DNA of 64,000 bases, taken from the NCBI GenBank assembly GCA_947584375.1, contig CANPWL010000003.1, forward strand, positions 62,001 to 126,000, given 5' to 3'. This document shows positions 15,097-63,232 of the stretch, one piece after another. The first letter of the stretch is position 1, and each line of letters starts with the position of its first letter. Both the position numbers and the translations under genes were made by a program. Source of the DNA: an uncultured Clostridia bacterium. Its GTDB lineage: Bacteria > Bacillota > Clostridia > Oscillospirales > Ruminococcaceae. The notes under the pieces were generated by a model. The model did not search any database, was not told the origin of the DNA, and worked only from the letters and a program-made list of their open reading frames with translations.

Positions 15097-15807
15097 ATGT
15101 TAGAGGAATTAAAAGAAAGAGTTTACCGTGCAAATATGATGCTACCCGAGAATAATCTTGTTATATCAACATGGGGGAACGTATCGGAAATCGACCGTGA
15201 GAAAGGTCTTTTTGCAATCAAGCCAAGCGGAGTTGCCTATGAGGAGCTCTCACCTGATAAAATGGTCGTTTGCGACTTAAAGGGAAATGTGGTTGAGGGA
15301 GATCTAAAGCCAAGCTCCGATATGCTTACGCATCTGGAACTTTATAAGAATTTTTCAAATGCAAATGCCATTGTTCATACACATTCTAGATGGGCTACAA
15401 TATGGGCTCAGGCAGGTAAAAGCATAAGCGCTTACGGAACGACCCATGCAGATTATTTCTATGGGGCAATTCCCATTACAAGAAAAATGACAGATGAGGA
15501 GATCTCCGATAATTATGAGAAGAATACGGGAAGCGTTATTGTAGAAACCTTTGTATCCCACAGAACAAGCCCTTCTAAGATGAATGCCTGTCTTGTTTAC
15601 TCTCACGGACCGTTTCTCTGGGGAGATGACGCAATTTCAACTGTTGAAAAGGCTGTTGTTCTCGAAGAAATTGCGTTTATGGCTTGGCATACTGAAATAC
15701 TTGCATATAAAAAGGAAACTACTACTCTTAAAATGCAGCAGCAGCTTTTGGATAAACACTTCTTGAGAAAACACGGCGATAACGCTTACTATGGGCAGCA
15801 GGACTGA
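15097..15807 (+). CDS. araD: L-ribulose-5-phosphate 4-epimerase
   Basis: This 236-aa class II aldolase/adducin-fold enzyme converts L-ribulose 5-phosphate to D-xylulose 5-phosphate for entry into the pentose phosphate pathway. The zinc-binding HTHSRWATIWAQ lies near residue 95, with another ligand in YSHGPFLWG near residue 170; an N-terminal STWGNVSE and KPSGVAYEELSPDKMVV form the phosphate site. An AAGGGGA ribosome site precedes the ATG. The last three codons and the stop (15805-15807) lie inside a dispersed-repeat hairpin, so a repeat has settled exactly at the gene end and supplies the TGA. Confidence 0.93.
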   Translation: MLEELKERVYRANMMLPENNLVISTWGNVSEIDREKGLFAIKPSGVAYEELSPDKMVVCDLKGNVVEGDLKPSSDMLTHLELYKNFSNANAIVHTHSRWATIWAQAGKSISAYGTTHADYFYGAIPITRKMTDEEISDNYEKNTGSVIVETFVSHRTSPSKMNACLVYSHGPFLWGDDAISTVEKAVVLEEIAFMAWHTEILAYKKETTTLKMQQQLLDKHFLRKHGDNAYYGQQD

Positions 15808-15868
15808 ACCCTGCACGCTCTCTGCATATTAAAAGTTTAATTTAATGTTTAACTTTGTAAAACGGCAG
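15798..15868. repeat. Dispersed palindromic repeat, decayed copy
   Basis: Hairpin relic GCAGGAC-TGA-ACCCTGC (15798-15814, inner two pairs lost) followed by a diverged 46-bp core (15822-15868) ending AACGGCAG. It is in the same orientation as the copy after typA, and its TGA loop is the araD stop. Confidence 0.65.
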
Positions 15869-15891
15869 GCTTTGGTTTGTCTAAAATGTAT

Positions 15892-16104
15892 TTATTCTTC
15901 TGCTTTTTGCATAAGTTTGTAACAATGTTCGCTCAGTCTTGCGGTTTCGTCTGCTAAACATTCAAGCGCTCCTCTTAAAATGTCATCACCATATATGTGG
16001 ATAAAATACATTACACAAACTTCTGACAGTCCTTCTAGCTTTTCGGCTTTTTTCTTTATTTCTTCAAAGTCCACTAAATGAATTGCTTTGATTTTTTCTT
16101 TCAT
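15892..16104 (-). CDS. 70-aa protein of unknown function
   Basis: This small, mostly helical, slightly acidic protein begins MKEKIKAIHLVDFEEIKKKA and contains two Cys and a GALECLADETARL helix. I do not recognise the family. ATG 16104 is chosen because AGGAAGTGAC precedes it; the frame stays open upstream to 16272 but without a ribosome site and past the promoter. The promoter at 16137-16166 has a palindrome in its spacer, so it is probably repressed, perhaps by the adjacent ribbon-helix-helix or HTH protein. A 112-bp piece of this gene is repeated at 16454-16565, marking a rearranged accessory locus. Confidence 0.7.
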   Translation of the reverse strand: MKEKIKAIHLVDFEEIKKKAEKLEGLSEVCVMYFIHIYGDDILRGALECLADETARLSEHCYKLMQKAEE

Positions 16105-16136
16105 TAATGTCACTTCCTTTGTTTTTATTATTATAT

Positions 16137-16166
16137 ATAATAGCATACTGTGCATAGTATTTTCAA
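16137..16166 (-). promoter_or_regulatory. Promoter with operator palindrome in the spacer
   Basis: On the minus strand, TTGAAA (16161-16166), an 18-base spacer and TATTAT (16137-16142). The spacer holds the inverted repeat ATACT-ATGCAC-AGTAT (16145-16160), well placed to block polymerase. The binding protein is unknown; the neighbouring RHH protein is the obvious candidate. Confidence 0.5.
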
Positions 16167-16250
16167 TGGTTAAAATAAACAATTTTACAGTTTGGTTTGA
16201 GTAAGTTTTTGTTAATAAAATATATTTGTTTTGAAAGGTTGGTACTATAT

Positions 16251-16436
16251 ATGGGAAAGACATCAACAGCAAGTAAGCAAAAGTATAATAAAAAGGCTTA
16301 TGAACGAGTTGTTTTAACTGTAAAAAAGGGTGATAAAGAAAAGATCTTTAATAAAGCATCGGAGCTTGGAAAGAGTGTAAATGCATATATTAAAGACTTG
16401 ATCAACGCAGATACTAATGGAATGTTAAAGGATTAG
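16251..16436 (+). CDS. Ribbon-helix-helix (Arc-like) small protein
   Basis: This 61-aa basic protein has a Lys-rich N-terminus followed by a likely RHH fold: a strand RVVLTVKKGDKEKI and helices NKASELGKSVNAYIKDLI (about residues 20-52). Such proteins bind DNA as dimers and often act as antitoxins or plasmid and island regulators. The GTG/ATG-rich region upstream was rejected because GAAAGG and the lysine-rich start favour ATG 16251. It lies divergent from the 70-aa gene and between two copies of a 112-bp sequence derived from that gene. No toxin partner is evident. Confidence 0.72.
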   Translation: MGKTSTASKQKYNKKAYERVVLTVKKGDKEKIFNKASELGKSVNAYIKDLINADTNGMLKD

Positions 16437-16453
16437 CGGAGGCGGTAAAAATT

Positions 16454-16565
16454 TCATCACCATATATGTGGATAAAATACATTACACAAACTTCGGACAG
16501 TCCTTCTAGCTTTTCGGCTTTTTTCTTTATTTCTTCAAAGTCCACTAAATGAATAGCTTTGATTT
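16454..16565 (-). pseudogene. Duplicated fragment of the 70-aa gene
   Basis: 112 bp matching 15983-16094 in direct orientation with 110 identities (differences at the TCTGAC/TCGGAC and AATTGC/AATAGC sites). It covers roughly codons 4-41 of the 70-aa gene but lacks its start, promoter and 3' end, so it is a non-functional relic. The two copies bracket the RHH gene at a 471-bp spacing. Confidence 0.85.
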
Positions 16566-16687
16566 ATTTATATAACACACTAAAATATAGTGAAAATCAA
16601 TGTGTGATATTAAACAAAAATGTGAAAAGATTATTGTTTGTTTTACACATTAATCTAGTGAATATTGTTAAGGCAGGTGTTAACTGT

Positions 16688-16894
16688 ATGTCTATTCAGT
16701 ATAAGATTAATGTTTTAGCAGAATTAAAAGCCAAAGGCTATAACACATCACGTTTAAGAAAGGAAAAAATATTAGGAGAAGCTACATTGCAAAGATTAAG
16801 GCACAACAAAAGTGTATCTTATGCTGTCCTATCTAAGCTTTGCAGTTTACTTGAATGTGATATAGGCGATATTTTAGAGTATAGGGAAGATTAA
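16688..16894 (+). CDS. Small XRE/Cro-type helix-turn-helix protein
   Basis: This 68-aa protein consists of a single Cro/CI-like domain: NVLAELKAKGYNTSRLRKEK, then the recognition region ATLQRLRHNKSVSYAVLSKL, and CDIGDILEYRED at the end. This is the compact HTH type (HTH_26 class) common in mobile elements of Firmicutes. An AGGTG ribosome site lies 8 bases before ATG 16688; the frame upstream runs through the duplicated fragment and is not likely translated. It is the last gene of the small accessory locus and may regulate it. Confidence 0.82.
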   Translation: MSIQYKINVLAELKAKGYNTSRLRKEKILGEATLQRLRHNKSVSYAVLSKLCSLLECDIGDILEYRED

Positions 16895-16932
16895 ACAGAT
16901 ATAAAGTTGTTTATAATATATTATTGTTCTAA

Positions 16933-17112
16933 CTGCCGAGCCGGCAGGGGCTCTCTGCCTTTGGATAATTTGATTAATGTTTAACTTAGTGCAACGGCAG
17001 ACTAGTACTTAGAGACAAGAACTTATATTTCCAACAGAGTTCTGATAGTAATATCTTGTATCTTGCTTCTAATTTCTTGCCTCTAATAGCAAAACCACCG
17101 GCGGTTCGCCGG
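16933..17112. repeat. Composite of dispersed repeats
   Basis: Contains hairpin CTGCCG-AGC-CGGCAG (16933-16947), a 46-bp palindromic core (16955-17000), a 65-bp stretch (17016-17080) perfectly repeated in inverse orientation at 24678-24742, and hairpin CCGGCG-GTT-CGCCGG (17098-17112). The last hairpin ends 2 bases before the -35 box of the following gene. Confidence 0.8.
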
Positions 17113-17114
17113 TC

Positions 17115-17143
17115 TTGACAAGATCGTAATAATAGGTTAACAT
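17115..17143 (+). promoter_or_regulatory. Promoter of the CBS-domain gene
   Basis: TTGACA (17115-17120), a 17-base spacer and TAACAT (17138-17143), directly after a repeat hairpin. Confidence 0.5.
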
Positions 17144-17187
17144 ATATTTAAAAATTAAAACTAATCTCGAAAGGATATGATTATTTA

Positions 17188-18018
17188 ATGGATGACTCAG
17201 CGGGGCAGTCAGGTGGATTATTTTCAAGGCTTTTCAGCAAGAGGAAGAACTCTTTGACCGAAGATGAAATTATGGAGCTTTTAAATGGTGAAGACGCTGA
17301 CGATATAGATGAAAGTCAAAAAGAAATGATAAGCAACATTTTTGAGTTTGACGATATAGAAATAAAAGATGTTATGACGCACAGAATGGACATATCGGCA
17401 GTTGATATAAAGAGTAATTTAAAAGACGCCGTATCGCTGATAATTGAAAAAGGATTTTCCCGTATCCCTGTTTATGAGGATACGATAGATAATATTTGCG
17501 GAGTTATCTATGCAAAGGATTTACTTGCGTTGATTTTTGATGAAGACCCTGCAAGCCATAGTCTGTCTGAATTTGTAAGGGAGATAATATTTATCCCTGA
17601 AACTAATAGCTGCTTTGAACTGTTTGACAGCTTTACATCAAAAAAGTTACAGATAGCGGTTGCTGTTGACGAATATGGGGGAACTGCGGGTATTGTCACA
17701 ATGGAGGACTTGCTGGAGGCGATTGTCGGGAATATTCAGGACGAGTATGACAATGAGCTTGAAGAAATCCAAAAAATATCAAAAAGCGTTTACGAGGTTT
17801 TGGGAACAGCGGATACTGAGGATATTGCAGATGAGCTTGGATTTGAGCTGTCGGAGGATAACGATTGTGACACCATAGGCGGATTTGTAATAAGTCTTAT
17901 AGGACGTATCCCGAATAAAGATGAAAACACGTCGGTAGAGTACGGAGGAGTAAAGTTTACAGTAATATCAGCGGATGACAAACGCATAAAAAAGTTGAGA
18001 GTTGAAAAGCTTGACTGA
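17188..18018 (+). CDS. CorC/HlyC-like CBS-domain protein
   Basis: This 276-aa soluble protein has a tandem CBS pair (about 60-185), introduced by EIKDVMTHRMDISAVD, with GFSRIPVYEDTIDNICGVIYAKDLL in the first CBS and VDEYGGTAGIVTMEDLLEAIVG in the second. A C-terminal transporter-associated (CorC_HlyC) domain (about 195-270) includes DTIGGFVISLIGRIP. The DUF21 membrane domain of full CNNM/hemolysin C proteins is absent, as in CorC. The family is linked to magnesium and cobalt efflux and adenosyl-nucleotide sensing. The N-terminal 30 residues are low-complexity and basic. The promoter abuts a repeat hairpin. Confidence 0.87.
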   Translation: MDDSAGQSGGLFSRLFSKRKNSLTEDEIMELLNGEDADDIDESQKEMISNIFEFDDIEIKDVMTHRMDISAVDIKSNLKDAVSLIIEKGFSRIPVYEDTIDNICGVIYAKDLLALIFDEDPASHSLSEFVREIIFIPETNSCFELFDSFTSKKLQIAVAVDEYGGTAGIVTMEDLLEAIVGNIQDEYDNELEEIQKISKSVYEVLGTADTEDIADELGFELSEDNDCDTIGGFVISLIGRIPNKDENTSVEYGGVKFTVISADDKRIKKLRVEKLD

Positions 18019-22134: not shown

Positions 22135-24198
22135 GTGAGAAATACTCCATACGGAGTAGCAGAAGTGTTGACTAAGCTTGAAAGCGATATAAAATATCTA
22201 AAAGGAGTAGGTCCTAAAAGAGCCGAGTATTATCAAAAGCTTGGGGTATCAACCGTTTCGGACTTATTAGGTCATTACCCGCGTTCATATATGGATTTTT
22301 CAAGTCCTGTTTCTATAAAAGACGCAGTGCTTGAAGAAAACAATATAATAAAGGGGCGGATCGTAAAAAGACTTCCTGTTGCAAGAATACGCAAGGGAAT
22401 GACTATATATAAAGCAGTTATGACTGATGACGAAAGCGATATTACCATTGTAATCTACAACAGTGAATTTGCTTTTAACAAGCTTATCGAGGGAAAAGAA
22501 TTTCTGCTTTACGGGAAAGTAACAGGTAATCTTGTCAGAAAGGAAATATCATCTCCCGTTATTTTGGACGCTGACATTAATAATAAAATCCAGCCTGTGT
22601 ATCCTCTGACAGAGGGACTTACCCAGTCGCTTGTAAGAACAACTGTTCAGAATGCTTTAAAGTATCTCGACGGTGAGATATATGAAACCATACCCAAAGA
22701 GATAGCCGCAAGACGTGGGCTTTGTTCTTTGAACTTTGCGCTAGAGAATATACATTTTCCTAAAGATTTTCTAAGTTTTTCAATTGCAAAAAACAGGCTT
22801 GTGTTTGATGAATTTCTCATTCTTGGTCTCGGTATGCTGAAGCTAAGGGGCAGAAGCCGTGACAAGACAGGGTGTGAAATGAAAGATATTTCAATTGACG
22901 AATTTTATGATGGTCTGCCTTTTCAGCTAACTGACGCACAGCTTAATGCAATTAACGATTGCATATCGGATATGAAAAAGAGTTTTCCTATGAACAGGCT
23001 TGTTCAGGGAGACGTAGGTTCGGGGAAGACCGCCGTTGCGGCAGCTTGTGCGTTTTTCGCTTATAAAAACGGCTGCCAGACTGCTCTTATGGCGCCTACT
23101 GAAATACTTGCAAATCAGCATCACAAGACCCTTTCCGATTTTCTGTCGCCCTTTGGCGTTAAAATATGTCTGCTGACAGGTTCGCTGACCGCCAAAGCTA
23201 AGCGCGAAATAAAGGAAAGCATAAAGTCGGGCGAGGTTTCGGTAATTGTCGGCACACACGCACTTGTTCAGGAATCGACTGAGTTTGATGATCTCGGTCT
23301 TGTCATTACTGACGAACAGCACAGATTTGGCGTTGAACAGCGGGCAAACCTATCAAACAAGGGAAATAATCCGCATTGTATGGTTATGTCGGCAACGCCT
23401 ATTCCCAGAACTCTTGCGCTTATGATTTACGGTGATTTGGATATTTCTATAATCAACGAATTTCCGAAGGGCAGAAAGCCTATTGAGACCTTTGCTATAA
23501 CGGGAAAGGGAAGAGAGAGGGCATTTGGCTTTGTAGCACAAAGGCTGAAAGAAGGCAGACAGGCTTATATAGTCTGTCCCATGATCGAGGAAAACGATTT
23601 AGAGCTTCAGTCGGTCAAGGAATATGCAGATAAGATTTCAAAGTCGTATTTTAAGGATTACAATATAGGACTTTTGCACGGTAAGCTTAAGCCTAAGCAA
23701 AAGGACGCTATTATGAAAGCGTTCAAGGACGGTGATATTGACATTCTGGTTTCTACAACGGTGGTTGAGGTCGGGGTCGATGTACCTAACGCTGCCGTTA
23801 TGGTTATTGAAAACTCCGAACGGTTCGGGCTTTCACAGCTTCATCAGCTGAGAGGCCGTGTCGGACGCGGCAGTGAGAAGTCATATTGTATTCTTATAAC
23901 CGATAACCCGACTGAGGAATGTGTTAAAAGGCTTAAAATAATGTCTAAAATATCCGACGGCTTTAAGATATCGGAAGAGGACTTAAAGCTTAGAGGTCCG
24001 GGTGACTTTTTCGGAAGCCGTCAGCACGGACTTCCCGCTTTGAAAATTGCTGATATGGCGGAGGATATGGAAATACTAAAACAGGCTCAGGAGGAGGCAA
24101 GGGCGATCATAAAGAACGACCCGACTCTTTCAAAGCCTGAAAACAAACGATTGGCTGAACTGGTTGATAAGCTGTTCAGCAGAACAATTGACAATTGA
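22135..24198 (+). CDS. recG: ATP-dependent DNA helicase RecG
   Basis: This 687-aa branched-DNA helicase rescues stalled forks. The wedge domain starts with YLKGVGPKRAEYYQKLGV (about 22-39). Walker A is GDVGSGKTAVAAA near residue 297, the DExH box is TDEQHRFGVEQR, motif III is SATPIPRTLA, and QLRGRVGRG is motif VI. The start is uncertain: GTG 22135 follows AGGAAAG, but GTG 22165 or TTG 22168 after GGAG are alternatives. The final codons and the stop fall inside a CAATTGACAATTGA tandem repeat, so the C-terminus is repeat-derived. Confidence 0.95.
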   Translation: MRNTPYGVAEVLTKLESDIKYLKGVGPKRAEYYQKLGVSTVSDLLGHYPRSYMDFSSPVSIKDAVLEENNIIKGRIVKRLPVARIRKGMTIYKAVMTDDESDITIVIYNSEFAFNKLIEGKEFLLYGKVTGNLVRKEISSPVILDADINNKIQPVYPLTEGLTQSLVRTTVQNALKYLDGEIYETIPKEIAARRGLCSLNFALENIHFPKDFLSFSIAKNRLVFDEFLILGLGMLKLRGRSRDKTGCEMKDISIDEFYDGLPFQLTDAQLNAINDCISDMKKSFPMNRLVQGDVGSGKTAVAAACAFFAYKNGCQTALMAPTEILANQHHKTLSDFLSPFGVKICLLTGSLTAKAKREIKESIKSGEVSVIVGTHALVQESTEFDDLGLVITDEQHRFGVEQRANLSNKGNNPHCMVMSATPIPRTLALMIYGDLDISIINEFPKGRKPIETFAITGKGRERAFGFVAQRLKEGRQAYIVCPMIEENDLELQSVKEYADKISKSYFKDYNIGLLHGKLKPKQKDAIMKAFKDGDIDILVSTTVVEVGVDVPNAAVMVIENSERFGLSQLHQLRGRVGRGSEKSYCILITDNPTEECVKRLKIMSKISDGFKISEEDLKLRGPGDFFGSRQHGLPALKIADMAEDMEILKQAQEEARAIIKNDPTLSKPENKRLAELVDKLFSRTIDN

Positions 24199-24298
24199 CA
24201 ATTGATAATTGATAATTAATTGTCCATTGTCCATTATCCATTGTCCATTATCCATTATCCATTGTCCATTATCCATTATCCATTGTTCATTATTCCGA
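24184..24298. repeat. Simple tandem repeats, first block
   Basis: CAATTGA(C/T)AATTGATAATT repeats that overlap the recG stop, running into 7-base TCCATTA/TCCATTG units. The stretch can fold back on itself (CAATTGACAATT against AATTGTCC). The open frames across it are repeats of one short peptide and are not genes. Confidence 0.85.
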
Positions 24299-24299
24299 T

Positions 24300-24437
24300 C
24301 TGCCGTTGCTCAAACTTTAAAATTAATCAAATTACCCAAAGGCAGAGTGGATGCAACGTCACCGTTGCCCGGCGAACCGCCGGTGGATTTGCCGCCTTTG
24401 GATAGCTTGATAAATGTTTTAGTATGTACAACGGCGG
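24300..24437. repeat. Inverted pair of dispersed palindromic repeats
   Basis: Forward core 24300-24345, hairpin CCGGCG-AAC-CGCCGG (24369-24383) and a reverse core 24392-24437 with CCGCC/GGCGG ends (compensatory to the usual CTGCC/GGCAG). Confidence 0.8.
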
Positions 24438-24443
24438 GCTTAT

Positions 24444-24742
24444 CAATTGACAATTGATAATTGATAATTGATAATTAATTGTCCATTGTCCATTATCCAT
24501 TGTCCATTATCCATTATCCATTATCCATTATCCATTATCCATTATCCATTGTCCATTATCCATTGTCCATTATTCCGATCTGCCGTTGCTCAAACTATAA
24601 AATTAATCAAATTACCCAAAGGCATAGAGCCGGCGGCGGCTCGCCGCTCTTACATCTTACATCTAAAAGGAGTATAGGCAAGAAATTAGAAGCAAGATAC
24701 AAGATATTACTATCAGAACTCTGTTGGAAATATAAGTTCTTG
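24444..24742. repeat. Second copy of the tandem-repeat block plus dispersed repeats
   Basis: CAATTGACAATTGATAATT and TCCATTA/TCCATTG repeats (24444-24578) duplicate the block at 24184-24298, with the same 17-base junction into a palindromic core (24580-24624). Then come hairpin GCGGCG-GCT-CGCCGC (24633-24647) and the 65-bp inverted copy (24678-24742) of 17016-17080. No gene is present from 24199 to 24783. Confidence 0.82.
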
Positions 24743-45895: not shown

Positions 45896-46367
45896 CGGCG
45901 AGCCGCCGTTGGCATTTCTGCCTTTGGAAAGTTTGATTAACGCAAAGCTTTGATAAACGGCAGGTCAGGCTTTGTAAAAAGTATGCCAAGCAAAACAAAT
46001 CTACGCTGAGCCCTGCACTCGGTCTGCCTTTGGAAAGTTTGATTAATGCAAAGCTTTGATAAACGGCAGGTCAGGCTTTGTAAAAAGTATGCTATTGAGT
46101 TTTGCACTCGGTCTGCCTTTGGAAAGTTTGATTAACGCAAAGCTTTGATAAACGGCAGGTAAGGTTTTGTAAAAAGTATGCTATTGAGCTTTGCACTCGG
46201 TCTGCCTTTGGAAAGTTTGATTAACGCAAAGCTTTGATAGACGGCAGGTCAGGCTTTGTAAAAAGTATGCCAAGCAAAACAAATCTACGCTGAGCCCTGC
46301 ACTCGGTCTGCCTTTGGAAAGTTTGATTAATGCAAAGCTTTGGTAAACGGCAGGTCAGGCTTTGTAT
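45894..46367. repeat. Tandem array of five palindromic repeats inside the pilus operon
   Basis: After hairpin 45894-45910, the TCTGCCTTTGGAAAGTTT core begins at 45917, 46023, 46112, 46201 and 46307. The intervals are 106, 89, 89 and 106 bases. The 17-base difference is the presence of a CCAAGCAAAACAAATCTACG-type insert in the long units. All units are in the same orientation and end in AAACGGCAGG. The 573-base gap between prepilin and pilB holds nothing else. Confidence 0.88.
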
Positions 46368-53401: not shown

Positions 53402-53415
53402 AAGGAAGAGAGCCC

Positions 53416-53489
53416 CTGCCGGCTCGGCAGTCTAGCCTCTTGCTTCTGAAAATCTTGTATCTAGTTGCACTGAAACGTGCAACTTTTTT
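53416..53489 (+). terminator. Repeat hairpin plus strong terminator
   Basis: Dispersed-repeat hairpin CTGCCG-GCT-CGGCAG (53416-53430), then stem GTTGCAC / GTGCAAC (53464-53483) followed by TTTTTTGCTTTTT. The latter closes the 102-aa gene. Confidence 0.85.
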
Positions 53490-56335: not shown

Positions 56336-56395
56336 GCCCTGCATGCAGTCTGCCTTTGTATAGTTTGATTAATGTTACAGTTTGTACAACGGCGG
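56326..56395. repeat. Dispersed palindromic repeat at the typA stop
   Basis: Perfect hairpin GCAGGGC-TGA-GCCCTGC (56326-56342), whose loop is the typA stop, followed by a 46-bp core (56350-56395) with CTGCC/GGCGG ends in reverse orientation. Confidence 0.85.
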
Positions 56396-57684: not shown

Positions 57685-57910
57685 CCAGCGGTTCGCTGGT
57701 TTTGCCTATAATTTTTTTGTATATAGGTACTAGCCTGCCGTTTTGCTAACCGTCACATTATACAAACCTCCCAAAGGCAGCAGAGCCCCCAGCGTCACGC
57801 TGGTTACCGTTGCTTGCTTTCCAATTAAACAAAGTAAAGCCTGCCGTTGTACAAACTATAACATTAATCAAACTATCCAAAGGCAGCGGAGCCACCGCCG
57901 GCTCGGCGGT
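57685..57910. repeat. Cluster of dispersed palindromic repeats upstream of lepA
   Basis: Hairpin CCAGCG-GTT-CGCTGG (57685-57699), core 57735-57780, hairpin CCAGCG-TCA-CGCTGG (57789-57803), core 57841-57886 and hairpin ACCGCCG-GCT-CGGCGGT (57894-57910). The last base of this hairpin is the first of the lepA -35 box. Confidence 0.85.
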
Positions 57911-57938
57911 TGAATTTTTATTGCGTTTATGGTAAAAT
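57910..57938 (+). promoter_or_regulatory. lepA promoter abutting a repeat hairpin
   Basis: TTGAAT (57910-57915), a 17-base spacer and TAAAAT (57933-57938). Confidence 0.5.
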
Positions 57939-62736: not shown

Positions 62737-62842
62737 AGTTATCACCTCCCCTCAAAGGGAGAAACCGCCCTACCGTTCATGTACAGTACTCGGATATATT
62801 ATATAAGATTCATTTATAGCTGTCAAGCTAGGCAGAGAGCCC

Positions 62843-63232
62843 CTGCCGGCTCGGCAGTCTAGCCTCTTGCCACTAGGTACTAGCCTGCCGTTGCACTAAG
62901 TTAAACATTAATCAAATTATCCAAAGGCAGAGAGCCCCTGCCGGCTCGGCAGTCTAGCCTCTTGCTTCTAATCTCTAACTTCTAATCGGGCAGATTGGAT
63001 GCAACGTCACTTATTAGAGGATAGAAGTTAGAGGTAAGAGCAGGGCTGAGCCCTGCACGCAGTCCGCCTTTGGGTAGTTTGATAAGTGTTATAGTTTAAG
63101 AAACGGCAGACTTATACTTTGTTGGAAAAATTAGTTTTAGCCTCTTGCCACTAGGTACTAACCTGCCGTTTTGCAAAGTATACACATTATACAAACTTTT
63201 CAAAGGCAGCAGAGCCCCCAGCGGCTCGCTGG
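62843..63232. repeat. Cluster of dispersed palindromic repeats before the last gene
   Basis: Hairpin CTGCCG-GCT-CGGCAG (62843-62857), core 62885-62930, the same hairpin (62938-62952), short GTTAGA-type repeats (62960-63035), hairpin GCAGGGC-TGA-GCCCTGC (63040-63056), reverse core 63064-63109, forward core 63163-63209 and hairpin CCAGCG-GCT-CGCTGG (63218-63232), which ends at the -35 box of the next gene. No gene is present from 62827 to 63330. Confidence 0.87.

Follow-up and report, generated by a model that had tools for sequence, protein, structure and literature searches.

Layout of the S70 locus

The window, the whole stretch of 64,000 nucleotides analysed here, carries three small genes flanked by what we take, following the names given in a first-pass annotation, to be araD on one side and a CBS-domain gene on the other. 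One gene, on the minus strand, encodes a 70-residue protein, here called S70; the other two, on the plus strand, encode an RHH protein and an HTH protein. All three had been called in the first-pass annotation and are present as described (Table 1). The S70 promoter, TTGAAA-18-TATTAT (16166-16137, minus strand), scores 10/12 and is the joint best among 10 promoter-like matches in 15800-17200, where shuffled sequences lead one to expect 6.6 (sd 2.5). The palindrome noticed earlier in its -35/-10 spacer is indeed there, with the 5-bp arms ATACT and AGTAT. At gathering scores, Rfam gave no match in the window.

Table 1. Features of the S70 locus in the window.
Feature	Position	Strand	Remarks
S70 gene	15892..16104	-	70 aa; antiparallel helical hairpin predicted; family has 1-2 copies per locus
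S70 ribosome-binding region, AAAGGAAGTGA on the minus strand	16110..16120	-	kept in most sister loci
S70 promoter, -10 box	16137..16142	-	promoter scan
Palindrome ATACTGTGCATAGTAT in the -35/-10 spacer	16145..16160		putative operator of the RHH protein
S70 promoter, -35 box	16161..16166	-	promoter scan
RHH protein gene, 61 aa	16251..16436	+	putative S70 repressor; profile and Foldseek matches
Second S70 gene, a relic with only its 5' part	16448..16568	-	117/121 identity with 15977-16097
TTTGATTT, junction of a 36-bp deletion	16558..16565		seen on aligning the relic with C7
Palindrome CACTAAAATATAGTG in the promoter of the relic	16578..16592		putative operator of the HTH protein; sister module L120 (G005), 310/337
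Second copy of the HTH-type palindrome, CACATTAATCTAGTG	16646..16660		5' of the HTH gene
HTH_26 protein gene, 68 aa	16688..16894	+	putative regulator of the older module; Pfam HTH_26, 50.5 bits

Immediately 5' of the S70 -35 box is a conserved A/T-rich stretch (16167-16180, about TAGGCAAAATATACAAAT), found at the same place in sister loci. It is common to loci with different regulator types, is partly repeated in RHH promoters and may serve as an UP element or bind a shared factor.

An interspersed repeat of 46-73 bp with inverted ends, CTGCCTTTG...CAACGGCAG, occurs at about 50 places in the genome. Copies in the window lie at 15815-15871, 16931-17003, 24290-24350, 24575-24650, 45995-46360, 53402-53431, 56349-56393, 57838-57911, 62830-62953 and 63063-63119, and at 46007-46270 the repeat forms an 89-bp tandem array. 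It is hairpin-forming (z of -1.9 and -2.2 for two copies) and has no match in Rfam. Two copies flank the S70 locus, the left one being present 3' of araD also in genomes that have no S70 there. Heptanucleotide tandem repeats (ATTATCC, ACAATTG, AATTGAT) occupy 24184-24293 and 24445-24573, between interspersed-repeat copies, and similar TTGATAATGGATAAT strings adjoin S70 modules elsewhere.

The duplicated fragment is a broken S70 gene

Part of the S70 gene is repeated 471 bases away, start to start (15977-16097 and 16448-16568), with 117 of 121 positions identical, far beyond chance; the best 112-base stretch, 15983-16094, holds the 110/112 identity first described. The RHH gene lies between the intact S70 gene and the second copy. 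Alignment to an intact S70-HTH module at contig C7 of the same genome shows the fragment to be collinear with it save for 36 missing bases, a deletion between two TTTGATTT copies that took the start codon and the ribosome-binding site. The alignment identifies the fragment as a broken S70 gene from another module, the one to which the HTH gene belonged. Reading it as a control repeat or as mobile-element sequence was rejected on account of the same collinearity. Beside araD in another genome (G005), the HTH module is 310/337 identical to that of the window. The locus is best read, from these alignments, as an older HTH module with an RHH module later placed beside S70.

S70 is a multi-copy family found in one genus

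S70 is predicted to fold as an antiparallel helical hairpin (pLDDT 81, pTM 0.63). Pfam, NCBIfam, PHROG and PADLOC gave no match at E<=1, an absence that does not exclude a toxin, and the best hit in a profile search of solved structures was a designed coiled coil (E=0.027). Naming S70 from its fold was attempted and given up; only generic hairpins were returned, and Foldseek gave no match below E=1. The profile search that had been proposed for the 70-residue protein matched no database family and did uncover a multi-copy family within the genus.

A scan of the host genome (1.72 Mb, 38 contigs) with S70 found nine places at E<=0.001, comprising eight intact copies and the relic in the window. 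Each intact copy is divergent from at least one RHH or HTH_26 gene, and the neighbouring genes differ from copy to copy. Ten of the 15 genomes of the genus carry S70, with 2-15 matches each, including fragments and a few weak matches in long frames. The carriers, gut bacteria, look like one subclade, because AraD of the other nine carriers is 91-93% identical to that of the window and AraD of the five S70-less members only 58-62%. Outside the genus, S70 was not found among the sampled genomes on which this absence rests: of 197 genomes of the family, spanning 125 genera, 3 had it, all in its own genus, and of 391 genomes of the class the host genome alone did. Phage records gave no match, plasmid records a single weak one over half of the query (E=0.1), and in IMG/VR none of 464 pattern stretches was confirmed, in a scan that reaches only matches to a conserved pattern. 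Eight loci from the scan with one S70 paralogue come from uncultured Clostridia metagenome bins labelled Lapin, a label that suggests a rabbit origin.

Regulators of two unrelated folds

The RHH protein has an Arc-like match in PHROG (E=0.0019), and a profile search with an alignment (A5) gave AmrZ at E=0.0015. Its structural model is modest (pLDDT 74); Foldseek returned mostly RHH proteins (Arc, AmrZ, CopG, AtaR and KacA-type complexes), with Arc, AmrZ and CopG in the best rows, the top one at E 0.14 and none below 0.1. The HTH protein exceeds the curated cut-off for Pfam HTH_26, which is 22 bits, by a wide margin (Table 1). Both regulators amount to little beyond a DNA-binding domain. Of the three genes, whose functions the first-pass annotation had left unassigned, S70 matched no family, and the RHH and HTH_26 folds of the two regulators could be assigned by profile.

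In the wider family, 26 of 119 genomes (25 of 118 genera) match the RHH profile. Twenty-eight RHH loci were inspected, the carrier genus contributing two, and Pfam domains encoded downstream were one Zeta_toxin (L207), two ParE_toxin (L208, L211) and one HTH_26; a fifth downstream protein, RelE-like by eye, had no Pfam match. The RHH profile matched nothing in four of the five S70-less relatives of the genus and gave two partial matches in the fifth. None of 35 pattern stretches for RHH relatives was confirmed in IMG/VR, again in a scan limited to conserved-pattern matches. HTH relatives (29-60% identity) were found there at 80 loci, and a Pfam phage integrase adjoined the HTH gene at 2 of the 13 inspected. 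Judged by these matches, the regulators resemble those of toxin-antitoxin modules and of phages. The resemblance to a toxin-antitoxin or mobile-element control region pointed out in the first-pass annotation stands as kinship only, through RHH relatives beside ParE and Zeta genes and HTH relatives beside integrases. In one array (L153:2842-3204) an HTH_26 domain is fused to an RHH domain, apparently two joined regulator units.

S70 faces arrays of regulators

To survey the architecture, 63 regions were fetched around most, though not all, S70 matches (8 of 20 host-genome regions and 55 others), and some contig-end fragments of G003 were left out of the array set. Together with the window they hold 76 S70 clusters. 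In 73 of these, S70 faces an array of regulators on the opposite strand, which is how an array was defined; the three clusters with no detected regulator (L157, L160, L165) stand outside this set. There is one regulator in 40 arrays, two in 12, three in 9, four in 5 and five in 7. Some loci have a tandem S70 pair, and the RHH and HTH units are ordered in many ways. Of the 73 gaps between regulators, 21 are longer than 100 bases; 9 of the 21 retain the S70 ribosome-binding motif, and several others contain S70 coding remnants by eye. Growth of the arrays from one end, with the newest unit beside S70 as in CRISPR arrays, was considered after nested arrays had been noticed and is unsupported by the counts. 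The shorter array was a distal suffix in 22 same-site pairs and a proximal prefix in 15, and among all pairs the numbers were 32 and 40. For 101 same-site pairs with a common regulator, only the distal end agreed in 21, only the proximal end in 16, both in 41 and neither in 23.

These arrangements bear on a strict toxin-antitoxin module, in which the RHH or HTH protein, as antitoxin, would bind and neutralise the toxin S70 as well as repress its promoter. The genes are small and paired, as expected of such a module, and RHH relatives lie upstream of Zeta and ParE toxin genes. However, S70 is divergent and outside the regulator operon, the single operon of type II systems being replaced by opposite strands in the 73 arrays. 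S70 proteins of the same kinds are found with regulators of two unrelated folds, an observation not easily squared with direct binding. The regulators are scarcely more than DNA-binding domains, and S70 matched no toxin family in Pfam, NCBIfam, PHROG or PADLOC. We regard this explanation as distinctly improbable.

Loci occupy shared sites where regulators are exchanged

Grouping by flanking genes places 74 of the 76 clusters in 10 groups, each with several species, the largest of which (11) probably merges more than one site. When flanks on the same side were compared, 73 loci fell on 11 sites; when both flanks were required, 13 loci stood alone and the rest formed 12 groups of 2-8. Regulator types were delimited at 88% over a core segment, and a regulator counted as shared at 82%. 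Under the both-flank grouping, 32 of 162 same-site pairs have the adjacent regulator type in common, compared to 40 of 2203 different-site pairs, yet one site holds 7 regulator types in 8 genomes. The loci are thus inherited site by site, with frequent replacement of the regulator. Beside araD, S70 is present in four genomes (G000, G003, G005, G009) and absent in six (1.5 kb fetched). The varied insertion sites among relatives that would characterise a mobile element were not seen in the 10 flank groups. By eye, no integrase, transposase or relaxase was recognised in the ORF listings around the host-genome loci. Contrary to the proposed mobile-element resemblance, the window locus is one of eight intact S70 loci of its genome, at sites common to related species, and not a lone mobile element.

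In three genomes (G004, G006, G012; L187, L190, L193) the araD slot contains a different small element, as judged by eye. That at L193 includes a 29-residue hydrophobic ORF with no Pfam match, which is reminiscent of type I toxins.

Palindromes in S70 promoters follow the adjacent regulator

S70 promoters share a constant frame, consisting of a -10 box, about 17 bases, a -35 box and an upstream A/T-rich stretch, and it is the spacer that holds the palindrome. Symmetry was assessed over the 34 regulator types found across 73 loci, using for each type the best-anchored promoter by an anchoring score free of symmetry. The S70-HTH pair of the window's relic, which has no ribosome-binding motif, was left out of the promoter tests (74 reduced to 73 pairs). 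Dyad symmetry of the spacer at one register averages 0.58, compared to 0.30 at other positions, and at least 5 of 7 pairs match at that register in 16 of the 34 types, as against 3.8% elsewhere (Wilcoxon P=5e-5). The register is the maximum over 65 positions, so that multiplication by 65 gives a P of about 0.003, and related types are not independent. The same register emerged under an earlier anchoring of the same data. A test against dinucleotide shuffles across the 34 types gave a Fisher P of 1e-4. Over the 34 types, the placement of the palindrome is fit to block the S70 promoter, the window's dyad lying at a different register: it is among 18 types whose dyad is elsewhere in the spacer or weaker, and it scores 0.14 at the common register.

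By itself, the window palindrome is not significant (P=0.82 against dinucleotide shuffles, as tested on sister locus L114, which has the same 16 bases). Its meaning comes from comparison alone: ATACTGTGCAYAGTAT is kept at all four loci of the window's regulator type. Elsewhere in the host genome no other site lies within 1 mismatch of the palindrome, and five lie at 2 mismatches.

Spacer identity is 0.81 for pairs with the same regulator type and S70 proteins below 60% identity (38 pairs, not independent of one another), and 0.36 for pairs with different regulator types and S70 proteins at least 85% identical (183 pairs, likewise not independent). The putative operator sequence follows the adjacent regulator, not S70. 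Since operator and regulator lie side by side, such pairing could be partly linkage without function; the position of the palindrome, where it would block the promoter, makes an operator likely. The first-pass annotation had named either the RHH or the HTH protein as repressor of the 70-residue protein. This comparison points to RHH as the likely repressor; the HTH protein has palindromes of its own and probably regulates the older module.

Selection on S70 and its regulators

Ratios of dN/dS were calculated for pairs from different genomes with dS of at least 0.1. The median is 0.20 for S70, where 66 of 67 pairs lie below 1. It is 0.19 both for the regulators adjacent to S70 (49 of 53 pairs below 1) and for those later in the arrays (52 of 52). 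By this measure S70 and its regulators show purifying selection.

The conservation of later regulators, which have no S70 of their own, is what would be expected if the arrays were kept as a stock of repressors that silence phage, plasmid or toxin-module genes with the same operators, S70 being secondary. Only 6 of 73 later regulators have an S70 locus of the same type elsewhere in the genome, a rate not below that between genomes, and HTH relatives occur in IMG/VR contigs, at times beside a phage integrase. Anti-addiction by chromosomal antitoxins, described in PMC3920263, provides a precedent. However, it is S70 promoters that hold the palindromes, S70 is conserved as well, and none of the 35 pattern stretches for RHH relatives was confirmed in IMG/VR. 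A repressor stock with S70 in a secondary role is, in our judgement, improbable.

Loci of one genome appear to have distinct operators

Within a genome, none of 263 pairs of S70 loci has an operator in common. Shuffling the contents within sites leads one to expect 3.5 such pairs (P=0.016), and free shuffling 6.4 (P=0.0006); between genomes 28 of 2117 pairs at different sites share one. S70 proteins that are at least 80% identical do recur within a genome (27 of 263 pairs). At the protein level the contrast is weaker, with the same regulator in 2 of 263 pairs within a genome and 36 of 2117 between genomes, and later regulators do not avoid the type of an S70-adjacent regulator (7 of 567 within a genome, 60 of 4180 between). 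The support for exclusivity is modest, and the counts are suggestive of distinct locks being kept within one genome.

Exclusive operators would follow automatically if the modules were selfish and formed incompatibility groups, S70 aiding establishment or copying and a resident repressor of the same type blocking the newcomer, much as in superinfection immunity. Movement of units between sites and species is in keeping with this, and, according to PMC3874152, the C proteins of restriction-modification systems form incompatibility groups that are set by operator specificity. However, S70 occupies shared sites with no sign of free insertion; it has no match in phage records, is unconfirmed in IMG/VR and is represented among plasmids by one weak partial match (E=0.1), and later regulators do not exclude loci of the same type elsewhere in the genome. 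Selfish modules of this kind are, in our view, an unlikely explanation.

A proposed repressor-operator lock on S70

We lean towards a reading in which a small effector, S70, is locked at each locus by a repressor and its operator, with locks exchanged by recombination. Its best-supported part is that each S70 gene is likely to be under a dedicated, exchangeable repressor, as judged from the comparisons above. The adjacent regulator, RHH in the window, would sit as a dimer on the palindrome in the -35/-10 spacer of the divergent S70 promoter, blocking RNA polymerase, so that S70 would be made only after the repressor is lost, inactivated or titrated. The recombining unit may be an operator with its regulator or an entire S70-operator-regulator module. 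Recombination between paralogous loci would bring a new unit beside S70, and the older regulator would stay downstream behind a decaying S70 relic, which in the window is the duplicated fragment. Selection preserves S70 and the regulators and probably also the differences between the locks of a genome, each locus answering to its own repressor. The architecture, the operator-regulator linkage, purifying selection, regulator turnover at sites and the origin of the relic are the parts of this reading that comparison of the loci demonstrates, repression being inferred.

As to what S70 does, the conjecture that we favour is a growth-limiting or anti-invader effector, freed once one of the repressors is disturbed by an invader or by some genetic accident. 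Taken further, the set of loci might form a clade-specific alarm, with effector copies each behind a different captured repressor of phage or antitoxin type, locks traded between loci and species, and no lock shared within a cell, such that an invader disturbing any one of them frees the effector. We consider this possible but doubtful. If true, it would be a case of trigger diversification for one defence effector, which was not met in the literature searched. That literature also contained no description of the present arrangement, and this is weak evidence of absence, most subscription journals being beyond reach.

About 34 natural types of RHH and HTH repressor, with predicted operators in one promoter frame, allow the evolution of DNA specificity in RHH and HTH_26 proteins to be studied, as well as the reason why one small protein is kept under mutually different control. 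Should S70 turn out to be benign, these loci would still supply small repressors that may be orthogonal.

Comparison with known systems

Several known systems share features with the S70 loci. The S70 model superposes on variants of Rop-like helical hairpins (1f4n, Z 8.9, rmsd 1.5, 59 residues aligned), but the identity is 8% and many unrelated helical proteins tie with them, so that this likeness supports no inference of function. The window's HTH protein is a clear member of the phage-type Cro/C1 family (Pfam HTH_26), some of its relatives lying beside phage integrases; at S70 loci, however, the HTH gene faces S70, and no integrase was seen among the ORFs listed beside the host-genome loci.

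C-protein groups (PMC3874152) resemble the S70 loci in that small DNA-binding proteins, together with their operators, define specificity groups and keep further systems of the same type out of a cell. They differ in that C proteins also activate and belong to restriction-modification systems, whereas repression is proposed for S70 loci, where no restriction-modification genes were seen.

A parallel in fold is with Omega of epsilon-zeta and PaaR of PaaA-ParE, which PMC3874152 presents as RHH third-component repressors of toxin-antitoxin operons. The window's regulator has the RHH fold of these repressors, and in both cases a small RHH-type repressor sits on an accessory module, with relatives of the window's RHH protein beside Zeta and ParE genes. 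Omega and PaaR head an antitoxin-toxin operon, an arrangement seen only for those relatives in other genera; the neighbours at S70 loci are regulators or ordinary genes. Set against these systems, the S70 target is divergent, single and not recognisable as toxin or antitoxin, and many regulator types of two folds act, on our reading, on one target family.
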